DNA of 49,250 nucleotides from Acidimicrobiia bacterium (lineage in GTDB: Bacteria; Actinomycetota; Acidimicrobiia; Spongiisociales; Spongiisociaceae). Location of the stretch: contig VXMP01000007.1 in NCBI GenBank assembly GCA_009841075.1, positions 1 through 49,250 of the forward strand, written 5' to 3'. This document shows, piece after piece, positions 6,101-18,113 of this stretch. The translations under genes were made by a program, and so were the position numbers. Below the pieces are notes generated by a model. It was given only the letters and a program-made list of their open reading frames with translations. It was not told where the DNA came from and did not search any database. Position 1 is the stretch's first letter; each line of letters opens with the position of its first letter.

Positions 6101-7714
6101 ATGCGACGGGCTTTAAAAATATTCCAGTTTAGATTAGTTATTTTAATCGTTGTTTTAGGTGGCGGGTTGTTTATTACTTCTCTGTTGGTGGGGACGGCCC
6201 GGGGCCAAAATGTCAATTTATGCGACCGTGAAGCGGGCGTAGGTTTTTCTGATGTCGGCGACCAGGACTACGGTGCCGAATATGTTCGTTGTATGAAGGC
6301 TTTGGGGCTGTCGCTCGGGCGTGGGGATGGCAGTTTCGGGGTCAACCAGAATCTCACCCGGGCTCAGATGGCTTCTTTTTTGGTGCGGCTTTGGAGGGAC
6401 ACGTTGGGTAGAGATTGTCCGGCAGGTGGCCATCCGTTCGACGATGTTTCAGTAGGAGGATCTCATTCGGCCAATATTGCCTGCCTCTACAACCTCGGAA
6501 TCACCAAGGGAACCACCTCCACCCGATACTCACCTTCCGACCCCCTGACCATCCGGCAGATCACCCTATTCCTGACCCGGCTCTATCAAGAGATCGGGGC
6601 GTCTTGTCCCGCCCGCAGCTCCGAACTCGAACGGGCGGTGTCCTGCCTGACCAACATCAACGTCATCTCCTCCCAGGATTATGGGACCGGAGGCGGAACC
6701 GTCACCCGATCTCAGATGGCCGTATATGTGGTCGGTTTGTGGCACAACATCTCGGGAAGGGGTGTTCCACCGCCTCCACCTTCCAAGCCAACGAGCACCA
6801 ATAACCCAGTAGGTGGTGCGATTGCCAATATTTTGCCACCCAGATCCAACACCACCTCAACAACTTCAACACCTTCCACCACGGTTGCGGATTCCGGCTC
6901 AAGCGTTTTGGCGGCATTGCAGGGTCTGACCGTGGAGCCGGAGCAACGATCCGGCTACAGCCGCTCCCTGTTCCGACATTGGAGGGATCTGGACCGCGAC
7001 GGCTGCGACACCCGCCGAGAGATTCTGAGACGTGACGCCCGCTCCCAAGAATTCGAGAACAGCTCCTGCGGGGATGACACCGGCATCTGGGTTTCCATAT
7101 ACGACGGCATCCAGGTCAGCACCGCCCGCTCGTTGGACATCGACCATCTGGTCCCTCTGGCCGAAGCCTGGGATTCCGGTGCCCACTCCTGGGACTCCAA
7201 CCGGCGAGAGCTGTTCGCCAACGACGAATCCGCTCTCCTGGCTGTTACCGCCCGATCCAACCGCAGCAAAAGCGCCTCGGACCCCGCCGAATGGATGCCT
7301 AGCAGCTCAGCCGCCCGCTGCCCCTATGCCTCGGCCTGGGTGGCCACCAAGGTTAAATGGAACCTGTCGGTAGACAACCGTGAATACAACTTTTTGGCCA
7401 ACCTGTTCAGGGGCGAATGCCAGGGAAGCGGCCTTTATCTGGGAACCCCGATTCTGGCCTTCCCCACTATTAGAACCCCCGGCCTGGAAATACCCACTTT
7501 GGAAGTCCCCGCCCTGACCGGAACCACGTCCACGACATCCACCACGGTCGCCCCCGGCAGGATCCCACCCAACCCGGGCGACAGCAAAAACTGCTCCGAC
7601 TTCAGCACCCATGCCGAAGCCCAGGCCTGGTTCGACACCTACTACCCCCACTACGGAGACGTAGCCCGCCTCGACGGAAACAACGACCTCAAGGCCTGCA
7701 CCAGCCTGCCGTAG
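6101..7714 (+). CDS. Secreted SLH-repeat protein with HNH (DUF1524-type) nuclease and excalibur-like tail
   Basis: A 537-residue exported protein. Residues 1-36 are a signal peptide (basic start, hydrophobic VILIVVLGGGLFITSLLVG, ending near ARGQ). About 40-215 holds three SLH-type repeats, each with an FSDV/FDDV-like start and TRAQMA or TRSQMA end. A Ser/Thr/Pro linker follows. About 270-455 is an HNH nuclease of the secreted actinobacterial kind: GYSRSLFRHW, DRDGCDTRREIL, then IDHLVPLAEAWDSG with the metal/catalytic His, NRSKS and PAEWMP. A second Thr-rich linker leads to an excalibur-like Ca-binding end (CSDF...LDGNNDLKAC). It likely degrades DNA at the cell surface for nutrition or competition. 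Confidence 0.88.
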   Translation: MRRALKIFQFRLVILIVVLGGGLFITSLLVGTARGQNVNLCDREAGVGFSDVGDQDYGAEYVRCMKALGLSLGRGDGSFGVNQNLTRAQMASFLVRLWRDTLGRDCPAGGHPFDDVSVGGSHSANIACLYNLGITKGTTSTRYSPSDPLTIRQITLFLTRLYQEIGASCPARSSELERAVSCLTNINVISSQDYGTGGGTVTRSQMAVYVVGLWHNISGRGVPPPPPSKPTSTNNPVGGAIANILPPRSNTTSTTSTPSTTVADSGSSVLAALQGLTVEPEQRSGYSRSLFRHWRDLDRDGCDTRREILRRDARSQEFENSSCGDDTGIWVSIYDGIQVSTARSLDIDHLVPLAEAWDSGAHSWDSNRRELFANDESALLAVTARSNRSKSASDPAEWMPSSSAARCPYASAWVATKVKWNLSVDNREYNFLANLFRGECQGSGLYLGTPILAFPTIRTPGLEIPTLEVPALTGTTSTTSTTVAPGRIPPNPGDSKNCSDFSTHAEAQAWFDTYYPHYGDVARLDGNNDLKACTSLP

Positions 7715-15171: not shown

Positions 15172-16263
15172 ATGCGGATAACCGCTCCGGTTCTGATCGA
15201 AGCCGGCCGGCCTATGGAGATGCTGGAGCTGGATGTCGACGACCCGGGCCAGGGGGAGGTACGGGTGAGGATGGTGGCCAGCGGGGTATGCCATAGCTGC
15301 CTGCACGCCGCCGACGGTTCCCACCCCAAGGTTCCCAAGCCGATCGTGTTGGGCGACGAAGGGTCGGGGGTGGTCGAAAAAGCCGGCAAGGGCTGCCTGA
15401 GTCTGGTGCCCGGCGATCATGTGATCATCTCGTGGGCACCGGTCTGCAGCTCCTGTACCCTCTGTCACCTGGGATTGCCGGCTCTTTGCACCAATCCTCA
15501 ACCCTTCGGCTATCTGTTTGACGGGACCACCCGTTTCCACCATCGGGGCAAAGATGTGCACCACTACGGGCCGTCCACCTTTTCTCCCTATATCGTGGTA
15601 CCGGAAGAGGGGGCGGTGAAGATTCGGTCGGATTTTCCGCTCGACCAGGCTGCCCTGATCGGCTGCTCGGTTACCACCGGATACGGGGCGGTGGTCAACA
15701 CGGCCCGGGTTAAGGCCGGCCAGTCGGTGGCGGTGCTGGGCTGCGGAGGGATCGGATTAAACGCCATCCAGGGGGCCTACCTGGCCGGTGCCCACCCCAT
15801 AATCGGCATCGACGTGCTCGAATCCAAGCTGGCTTGGGCCCGAGAGTTCGGGGCCACCCACACCATCAACTCGACCGCCTCGGATGTGGTGGAACGGGTC
15901 CGGGAAGTAACCGGTCCGGGAGTGGACGTCAGCGTGGTGGCGGTGGGCCATCCCCACCCTATGGAACAGGGGCTCCACATGCTGGGGCCGCAGGGAATCG
16001 AGGTGGTGATCGGCCTTCCGGTGCCCGGGTCCACCTTTCCGGTTGATCCTCATCTGCTCATCCAAGGGGAACGACGGATCACCGGGTCTCGTTACGGCAG
16101 CGGCAACCCCCATGTCGAGTTCCCGAAAATGATCGATTTGGCCCGTTCCGGCCATCTTCGTATAGGCGATCTGGTCACCGAGCGTTTCCGGCCTGACCAG
16201 GCCAACCAGGCCTTCCGATCCTTGGCGGCAGGAGAACAGGCCCGGGGGTTGATCGTATTTTGA
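15172..16263 (+). CDS. Zinc-type MDR alcohol dehydrogenase with altered zinc ligand
   Basis: A 363-residue medium-chain dehydrogenase of the class III / NDMA-like branch. GVCHSCLHA carries the catalytic Cys region, and the structural zinc lobe CSSCTLCHLGLPALC is complete. The nucleotide fold is VAVLGCGGIGLNAIQGAYLAGA. The usual GHEGxG motif reads GDEGSG, so the second catalytic zinc ligand appears to be Asp in place of His. The stop overlaps the start of the selenocysteine lipoprotein (TTGA), so the two are translationally coupled. A redox partnership is possible but only inferred. Confidence 0.88.
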   Translation: MRITAPVLIEAGRPMEMLELDVDDPGQGEVRVRMVASGVCHSCLHAADGSHPKVPKPIVLGDEGSGVVEKAGKGCLSLVPGDHVIISWAPVCSSCTLCHLGLPALCTNPQPFGYLFDGTTRFHHRGKDVHHYGPSTFSPYIVVPEEGAVKIRSDFPLDQAALIGCSVTTGYGAVVNTARVKAGQSVAVLGCGGIGLNAIQGAYLAGAHPIIGIDVLESKLAWAREFGATHTINSTASDVVERVREVTGPGVDVSVVAVGHPHPMEQGLHMLGPQGIEVVIGLPVPGSTFPVDPHLLIQGERRITGSRYGSGNPHVEFPKMIDLARSGHLRIGDLVTERFRPDQANQAFRSLAAGEQARGLIVF

Positions 16264-16967
16264 TCCGATCGATCAGCTGCTCAATAGCCCTGCTGATGGT
16301 GCTAACCGCTTGCGCGGGTGACGATTCGAATACCCCGGCCGGCACCACCCCGGCCTCGGTCCCGGAACCATCCACCTCTGTCACGACCGAAGCCGCCCCG
16401 CCGGAACGGACTACGGAACCGACCACCCTTCCTGCCGGTGGAGGTTCTTCCACTACAACTACCCCACCGCCGCCGACAACAACTACTACCACCACCGAGC
16501 CGGTCGTTTTAACCACTGCCCCGATTGTCGTCTCCTCCGACGTCCCCGATTACGACATGATCGACGTACACACCGGCGAAACGGTCAACCTCCGGTCGGT
16601 GGTTAAAGGAGACAAGCCGCTGCTGTTTTGGTTCTGGTCTCCTTTGTGAGAGACCTGCCGGGAGGAGGGTCCGGCCTTCGAGCAGTTCGCTCGACAAAAC
16701 GAACACCGACTCACCATCGTGGGAGTGGGGGGTTTGGGTTCTTATGAGAACACCCAGGAATATCTGGCCTATACCGGTGTGACCTTCACCCTGCTCTGGA
16801 CCGAAACCTGGGAGGTTTGGGATCATTACGGCATGGAAACCACCTCCGACTTCATCCTCCTCGACCCGGAGGGAAACCGGCTGACCGAACGCCCGGTGCC
16901 CTACAGCGAAGAGACGATTGAGAATCTGCTGACCGAGATGACCGAACCCGTTGAAGTCGCCGGGTAG
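16260..16967 (+). CDS. Probable selenocysteine-containing thioredoxin-like lipoprotein (UxxC)
   Basis: One in-frame UGA (16647-16649) interrupts a 235-codon gene. Reading it as selenocysteine gives FWSPLUETCREEGPAFEQF, a TlpA/redoxin active site with Sec130 and Cys133 (UxxC). The frame then stays open through a full thioredoxin fold to TAG at 16965-16967. Residues 1-18 form a lipoprotein signal with lipobox LTAC (Cys18). A long Thr/Pro/Ser spacer (about 20-85) lifts the domain off the membrane. Start TTG overlaps the dehydrogenase stop. By eye, the residue at the usual cis-Pro position is Thr. Hairpins follow the UGA. The paralogue downstream has UGA at the identical site, which argues against pseudogenisation. 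Confidence 0.85.
16650..16694 (+). promoter_or_regulatory. Candidate bacterial SECIS element(s) of the Sec lipoprotein
   Basis: Directly 3' of the UGA, GCCGG (16657-16661) pairs with CCGGC (16671-16675) around a purine-rich nine-base loop starting with G. A second perfect hairpin has TCGAGC (16678-16683), loop AGTTC and GCTCGA (16689-16694). Bacterial SECIS elements sit within the coding region just after UGA and expose a G early in the apical loop to SelB. Both hairpins have that G. Which one is used is unresolved. Confidence 0.55.
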
Positions 16968-17024: not shown

Positions 17025-18113
17025 ATGGGAAGCATCCGGCCGGCATCTTTGAAAGCCAGGCTGTCTGTGGTGGGTACCGCCACCCTGTTGGTCCTATCCC
17101 TTCTGGCAGCGGCACCTCCCCTACCGGCGGCGGAGGGCGGGTTCTCCGACGTTACCGGCGGCAGTCACGCCCCGGCCATCAACGCCCTGGCCGAGCTGGG
17201 CGTGTTTGACGGAACCGAATGCGGCGATGACCTGTTCTGTCCTCGGCAACCGATAGAACGTCGGGTGATGGCGGTGTGGCTGGTCAGGGTCCTGGGCGAA
17301 AGCCCGTCCGCTTCGACTTTTTCCCGCTTCGCCGATGTGGACGCCTCCGCCTGGTGGTCACCCTATGCGGAACATCTGGCCGTGAAATCTATAACCGCCG
17401 GATGCAAAACCGGCCCGCTCCGCTTCTGCCCGGACGAATCGGTCACCCGAGGCCAGATGGCCACCTTCCTGGTCAGGGCCTTCCAATTGCCTCCCGCCGC
17501 CGGGCGAGGCTTTGTAGACACCTCCGGCACCATCCATGCGGCCAACATCAATGCTCTGGCCGCCGCGGGAGTGACCACCGGTTGCCACCCCGCCCCGCTG
17601 CGTTTCTGCCCTGGCCAACCGGTGACCCGAGCCCAGATGGCCACCTTCCTGCACCGGGCCCTGCCGGAGGCGACCCAACCGGTGGAGATCAGCGCCGAGG
17701 TGCCGGATGCGGAGGTAACCGACATTCCCACCGGAGAGATCGTCAACTTCCGGTCGCTCATCAAAGGTGATACGGCGGTCCTCCTGTGGTTCTGGGCGCA
17801 TTGGTGACCGACTTGCCGGGCAGAAGCGCCCCAAGTCGAGCAGTTCGCTCGCAATAACGCCGACCAGGTAACCGTTATAGGGATCAACCCCTCGGCCTTG
17901 AGTGGAAGGCCGGCGAGCGCCAAGGATTTCGTCAGCAACTACAAGCTGACGTTCACCAACCTGCTAGACATCTCCAATTCGGTTTACGACCACTATGAGA
18001 GGCCATACAACTCCCAGGTGCTGCTGCTGGACCGAACCGGCCAACTGGTAAGTGAAGCACCCATGCGGTTTTCCGCTATCGAAATCCTCAAGCAGATCGA
18101 CCGGTTGGACTGA
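17025..18113 (+). CDS. Probable selenocysteine-containing SLH-redoxin fusion (UxxC)
   Basis: The product has 362 residues when UGA 17805-17807 is read as selenocysteine. Residues 1-37 are a signal peptide (LLVLSLLAAAPPLPA). About 38-220 are three SLH repeats with the Cys-containing GCKTGPLRFCPD / GCHPAPLRFCPG pattern and TRGQMA/TRAQMA ends. About 225-362 is a redoxin domain with FWAHWUPTCRAEAPQVEQF, giving Sec261 and Cys264. A normal Cys relative would read WCPTC. The domain continues through VTVIGINPSAL and VLLLDRTG to TGA at 18111. The residue at the cis-Pro position looks like Asn. It likely works at the cell wall or S-layer. The end overlaps the convergent dehydrogenase gene by 26 bases. 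Confidence 0.87.
17808..17851 (+). promoter_or_regulatory. Candidate bacterial SECIS element(s) of the SLH-Sec redoxin
   Basis: Two bases after the UGA, GACTTG (17810-17815) pairs perfectly with CAAGTC (17832-17837). A two-base CC bulge leads to a second helix, GGGC (17818-17821) with GCCC (17828-17831), capped by loop AGAAGC, whose second base is G about 16 bases from the UGA. This fits the known bacterial SECIS layout well. A weaker second hairpin (CGAGC, 17837-17841, with GCTCG, 17847-17851, loop AGTTC) lies at the same offset as in the sister gene. Confidence 0.65.

Follow-up and report, generated by a model that had tools for sequence, protein, structure and literature searches.

Does the UGA codon at positions 17805–17807 of this stretch of DNA (the window, 49,250 nucleotides long) end a small surface-layer-homology (SLH) protein, or does it place a selenocysteine (Sec, U) in the active site of an enzyme carried on the cell wall? 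The best overall explanation, to which we assign a probability of about 80%, is that the gene spanning the codon encodes a secreted, wall-anchored seleno-thiol-disulfide oxidoreductase acting on surface proteins.

The fusion gene and its redoxin domain

The gene occupies positions 17025–18113 of the forward strand, on which the parts of this gene and of its upstream redoxin neighbour described below also lie, and encodes 362 residues when UGA261 is read through, its frame closing at an ordinary TGA terminator (18111–18113). The first-pass annotation had described a signal peptide, three SLH repeats, the motif FWAHWUPTCRAEAP with UGA at the first Cys position, and an open frame on to a normal stop, all of which are borne out by the translation, Pfam and a local HMM. 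The signal peptide (residues 1–36, positions 17025–17132, MGSIRPASLKARLSVVGTATLLVLSLLAAAPPLPAAEGG), recognised by eye, has a basic n-region, a hydrophobic core and an AxA-type end. It is followed by an SLH trimer (residues 37–216, positions 17133–17672), in which Pfam SLH (PF00395) scores 46.2 bits against a cut-off of 20.8 and the local HMM resolves three repeats, and by a TlpA/AhpC-TSA-type redoxin domain (residues 223–362, positions 17691–18110), which matches AhpC-TSA (PF00578) with 49.6 bits against a cut-off of 26 and also matches Redoxin. Around the UGA the translation reads LLWFWAHWUPTCRAEAPQVEQFAR, with the active site W-U261-P-T-C264 and the UGA at the first Cys position of a CxxC motif.

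Long chance open frames are common in the GC-rich window, so a single sequence would be insufficient; a chance frame is excluded because full-length UGA homologues are conserved in relatives. Among 138 genomes of the order, full-length SLH–redoxin matches that contain a single TGA, always at the same codon, occur in this genome and in eight others of the same genus or family (55–62% identity), two of which carry further fusion paralogues. In total, the search for SLH plus thioredoxin-fold proteins with UGA readthrough that had been proposed at the outset returned 13 non-redundant fusions spread over ten genomes, all from a single Acidimicrobiia lineage, and UGA stands at the identical codon in 13 of 13. 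Twelve of them have three SLH repeats (including L097, from a named contig), and the thirteenth (L054) has RCC1 repeats and two weak SLH repeats, the latter detected solely by the local HMM. The fusion of SLH repeats to a Sec-redoxin is confirmed as a real observation. All fusion homologues come from assemblies that resemble metagenome bins, and isolate names suggest marine sponges as a possible habitat.

RCC1 repeats are fused upstream of Sec-redoxins at two loci (L054:2713–4986 and L117:3–980), giving the same enzyme another surface architecture; the N-terminus of the former may hold frameshifts. The SLH-fused rows require one change in a tree of 113 redoxin domains (support 78/91; 76% of bootstrap trees), which fits a single gain of the fusion without proving it; from the sequences, the gain looks specific to one lineage. 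Gene-neighbour clustering finds MMPL, GATase and SDR genes beside the fusion within the genus and no conserved redox partner gene next to it in other genomes.

By sequence and fold, the redoxin part is closest to Mycobacterium tuberculosis DsbF (PDB id: 3ios) and MPT53 (1lu4) and to ResA/StoA. In its AF2 model (pLDDT about 61–88), U261 is positioned immediately before the active-site helix (residues 262–277), with C264 as the Cys of the UxxC motif. MPT53 (DsbE), DsbF and Bacillus subtilis ResA and StoA are likewise exported thiol-disulfide oxidoreductases, but they carry Cys in place of Sec, lack SLH repeats and have the canonical cis-Pro. In the fusion protein, the column that we take, from knowledge of TlpA/ResA, to be the cis-Pro position holds Ser330. 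This column is Pro in 26 of 26 Cys rows, and among the 110 Sec homologues it is Pro in 56, Ser in 42 and His in 11. With Ser at the cis-Pro position, the activity may therefore differ from that of ResA/DsbE. The NCBIfam equivalogs ResA, StoA, DsbE, NF041054 and NF041057 all score far below their cut-offs for the fusion protein, and by its sequence the redoxin is a relative of these families, not a member. Two of them, the Rcas_1661 family thioredoxin-like (seleno)lipoproteins (NF041057, an exported lipoprotein family by name) and the ResA-like WAxxUGC proteins (NF041054), are also thioredoxin-like with Sec or Cys; they differ from the fusion in motif and anchor, and its scores are 19–22 bits against cut-offs of 190 and 300.

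The strongest competing explanation keeps the protein and changes its chemistry: the enzyme might act in oxidative folding in the manner of MPT53/DsbF, or serve as a Sec-dependent peroxide or organic-hydroperoxide reductase that shields the surface from oxidants. We regard this as a serious contender, at well under even odds. MPT53 and DsbF are the closest solved folds, AhpC-TSA and Redoxin are among the Pfam matches, and the replacement of cis-Pro by Ser is unlike canonical ResA/TlpA. However, Sec is generally favoured where a protein reduces or exchanges rapidly, and not as a stable oxidant. Against this explanation also stands the active site itself, which is a thioredoxin-type UxxC and not the TxxU that PMC13188914 gives for Sec-peroxiredoxins. 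Within the preferred reading, a thiol-disulfide oxidoreductase acting on surface proteins, disulfide isomerisation or repair is preferred over pure oxidation with moderate confidence.

Reading of the UGA codon

Under translation table 11 the frame does end at UGA 17805, which would leave a 260-residue SLH protein followed by a decaying redoxin remnant. This is very improbable: every homologue retains the SLH and redoxin halves, with UGA at a single shared codon, the hairpin described below is conserved and the genome has the full Sec machinery. Furthermore, dN/dS among the fusion homologues is about 0.43 on the 3′ side of the UGA vs 0.37 in the SLH part, which shows that purifying selection acts on the downstream codons.

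The genome (2.30 Mb, 96% complete) contains selA, selB, selC and selD. The tRNA-Sec scores 76.4 bits against a cut-off of 47 and is called SeC, with anticodon TCA, by ARAGORN; selA (437 bits, cut-off 268) and selB (322 bits, cut-off 242) are adjacent on one contig, and selD reaches 374 bits against a cut-off of 125 in a family search. Another selB candidate, a gene on contig C50 with GTPase matches, was rejected, as it is Der. Across the order, selA is above its cut-off in 110 of the 138 genomes. The selD gene of this genome is itself a UGA gene, with GGGUTSK in its catalytic loop (L193, contig C63, UGA at locus position 1528), and its hairpin has a GUU loop at +36 to +38 past the UGA vs +38 to +40 for the GUU in the redoxins.

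After removal of duplicates the redoxin set comprised 110 UxxC and 3 CxxC sequences, to which 20 further loci were added as Cys controls. All 23 CxxC homologues have Cys at the UGA position, forming a Sec/Cys pair with the UGA genes. The two groups are also separated by a SECIS-type hairpin. In the fusion gene it lies at positions 17836–17852 (UCGAGC-AGUUC-GCUCGC, 5 bp), with the loop 34 nt past the UGA; its family form, UCGAGC-AGUU(Y)-GCUCGA, lies between +31 and +47, counted from the U of the UGA, and has 6 bp in most relatives. Of the 110 UGA-redoxins, 106 have an unbroken inner 5-bp stem, vs 0 of 23 Cys-redoxins. Synonymous recoding with pooled codon usage leaves an intact stem in 4.8% of cases (maximum 10.9%) vs 96% observed, and the Ala in the stem is encoded by GCT in 106 of 110 UGA genes vs 11% elsewhere in the same genes. 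In 35 sequences, the covariation of the hairpin exceeds that of all 500 shuffles, with compensatory changes from C-G to U-A in three sequences and from A-U to G-C in one; such changes are rare, since the stem hardly varies.

The bacterial SECIS model described in PMC13188914 has a loop of 3–9 nt, a stem of 4–16 bp, a G in the first two loop positions, a spacing of 16–37 nt and a minimum free energy of at most −7.5 kcal/mol. The geometry of the fusion-gene hairpin agrees with these published values (loop AGUUC, 5 bp, 34-nt spacing). Its free energy of −7.4 kcal/mol falls marginally short of the limit; that of the hairpin in the neighbouring lipoprotein gene is −8.7, the family median is −8.8, and 92% of the family reach the published limit. 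A second possible hairpin beside the UGA (17809–17838, CGACUUG..GGGC-AGAAGC-GCCC..CAAGUCG) shares nucleotides with the base of the SECIS-type stem. Structure between the UGA and the SECIS-type hairpin is stable in all sequences, although its register varies. A covariance model of the hairpin region, run on the same genome, scored convincingly only at the two redoxin genes of the window and therefore revealed no further selenoproteins. A scan for promoters and terminators gave chance-level results.

Decoding of UGA261 as Sec, as first proposed from the sequence, is supported because the complete machinery, the pairs of UGA and Cys homologues, a hairpin that the Cys homologues lack and purifying selection past the UGA all point the same way. 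The first-pass annotation had also set out what a pair of separate genes would look like: an SLH gene and a redoxin gene with its own start and ribosome site past the UGA. SLH-free redoxins are indeed widespread in the class; here, however, the UGA comes 38 codons into the redoxin domain, and within 50 codons past it the sole start-type codon of the fusion gene is a TTG at codon 31, which has no ribosome site. In the homologues only GTG or ATG codons occur past the UGA, none with a convincing ribosome site, and the chance of two genes is minimal. Genome-wide reassignment of UGA to Trp or another amino acid has equally negligible standing, as the fusion gene and several homologues terminate with TGA, homologues have Cys and not Trp at the codon, and a tRNA-Sec with anticodon TCA is present. 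The ordinary-stop, two-gene and UGA-as-Trp readings were rejected on the conservation of UGA at the same codon, the start of the redoxin before it and the TGA terminators.

The SLH part and the proposed substrates

In a full-length AF2 model built with 11 sequences the SLH part has a pLDDT under 50, whereas a separate SLH alignment with more relatives (16 sequences) resolved the fold, with a pLDDT of 90.6. The resulting model shows a true SLH trimer: in Foldseek the nearest structures are Bacillus anthracis Sap (3pyw, TM 0.82) and Paenibacillus alvei SpaA (6cwc), both at a TM of about 0.8. At the TRAE-type ligand motif the three repeats read ERRV, TRGQ (residue 141) and TRAQ (residue 201), compared with TRAE, TVEE and TRAQ in SpaA (PMC6081394). 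The fusion protein thus has the three-repeat fold of Sap and SpaA, with TRAQ in the third repeat, but it differs from them in having ERRV and not TRAE in the first repeat, an invariant Cys pair in each repeat and an enzyme attached. The invariant Cys number six, in three pairs (66/72, 127/135 and 187/195).

Six further SLH proteins of the genome carry the same six Cys and two more carry some of them, which makes disulfide-bonded SLH coat proteins plausible substrates. The SLH modules of the genome (L208–L219) fall into two classes, with the six invariant Cys or without Cys at those positions; an example of the latter, at 6101–7714 of the window, carries a GmrSD_C nuclease-type domain. Elsewhere in the genome there are one DsbD-TM/CcdA-type gene and one polysaccharide pyruvyl transferase gene (PS_pyruv_trans), whose sole NCBIfam match, CsaB, scores 134.5 bits, below the cut-off of 213.

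We propose the following mechanism. SelB and Sec-tRNA(Sec) would decode UGA261, guided by the hairpin about 34 nt downstream, and the signal peptide would direct export of the product. The N-terminal SLH trimer, whose fold comes from the model, would then hold the protein on the cell wall, leaving the Sec-Pro-Thr-Cys centre of the C-terminal TlpA/ResA/DsbE-like domain to carry out thiol-disulfide exchange on surface proteins. As substrates we would expect above all the disulfides of six-Cys SLH coat proteins made by the same cell, those of the enzyme's own anchor included. Isomerisation or repair of these bonds appears the favoured activity, with electrons presumably drawn from a CcdA/DsbD-type membrane protein and perhaps handed on by the lipoprotein Sec-redoxin of the adjacent gene.

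A class-wide family of UxxC redoxins with predicted export

This tandem partner, a putative seleno-lipoprotein redoxin directly upstream of the fusion gene (16260–16967), has a lipobox (LTAC), a Thr/Pro-rich linker and a UETC centre. Its UGA codon (16647–16649, read as U130) lies in the motif FWFWSPLUETCREE and is followed by a SECIS-type hairpin at 16678–16694 (UCGAGC-AGUUC-GCUCGA). The TTG start of the lipoprotein gene overlaps the stop of a zinc-type alcohol dehydrogenase gene (15172–16263). In the class-wide profile search, a UETC-type lipoprotein paralogue was found in 9 of 9 genomes with the SLH fusion, as assessed from the scores and from the copies inspected, and in three genomes (that of the window, G022 and G023) it adjoins the fusion gene. 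Pneumococcal Etrx1 and Etrx2 (4hqs, 2yp6) are surface-attached TlpA-type redoxins analogous to this partner; they differ from the fusion in being lipid-anchored and Cys-based.

A further step would be a two-tier selenium relay, in which the Sec-lipoprotein in the membrane and the SLH Sec-redoxin in the wall pass thiol or selenol redox equivalents outward from a CcdA/DsbD-type membrane protein and maintain the disulfides of the six-Cys SLH coat. We consider such a relay unlikely, if conceivable. If true, it would mean that S-layer-type proteins have a redox system of their own, based on Sec, whose two redoxins are encoded side by side in some genomes.

Of 395 genomes in the class, 145 gave matches to the redoxin profile, with a single TGA in most of the stronger matches. 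A scan across GTDB r220, with one genome per species, kept 80 loci, nearly all of them from metagenome assemblies of Acidimicrobiia or other Actinomycetota. About 110 non-redundant UxxC Sec-redoxins (L063–L172) were collected from Acidimicrobiia and near relatives, several of them in tandem pairs. They are mostly lipoprotein-like, with linkers rich in Thr/Pro or in Ala/Glu, and a rough pattern test finds a lipobox-like motif in about 80 of the 97 UGA-redoxins other than the fusions. The view of the gene as a surface selenoprotein is supported, with the qualification that the gene is no lone oddity but belongs to a class-wide UxxC family.

Its novelty needs a similar division. A 2026 inventory of 119 prokaryotic selenoprotein families (PMC13188914) includes UxxC redoxin families, among them the Prx-like thiol:disulfide oxidoreductase and Redoxin family selenoproteins (PF00578 or PF08534), which share the fold, the centre and SECIS-type decoding with the fusion; the latter differs in that its domain is C-terminal to an SLH trimer. 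The main text of that inventory contains no mention of SLH or S-layer in a word search, and titles and counts in the open-licence literature revealed nothing relevant that combines SLH or S-layer with selenocysteine or selenoprotein. The domain combination appears to be undescribed, because the inventory text is without SLH, no NCBIfam model reaches its cut-off and no paper title is relevant; the redoxin chemistry and the anchor are each known. The suggestion that an SLH–Sec-redoxin fusion is new therefore appears to hold, though export of a selenoprotein is not in itself a novelty, given that a seleno-lipoprotein family and TlpA-type families have been catalogued.

As no NCBIfam model matches at its cut-off, ordinary annotation probably truncates such genes at the UGA and lists them as lipoproteins or short SLH proteins, so that the enzyme goes unnoticed. 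No study of SelB–SECIS recognition in the Acidimicrobiia lineage was found, and the near-invariant hairpin, with its roughly 110 natural variants and few compensatory changes, makes a good test set for that recognition. Throughout the Acidimicrobiia the analysis reveals a family of UxxC redoxins that are predicted to be exported, and in the fusion described here selenocysteine chemistry would be placed outside the cell, on a wall-binding module.
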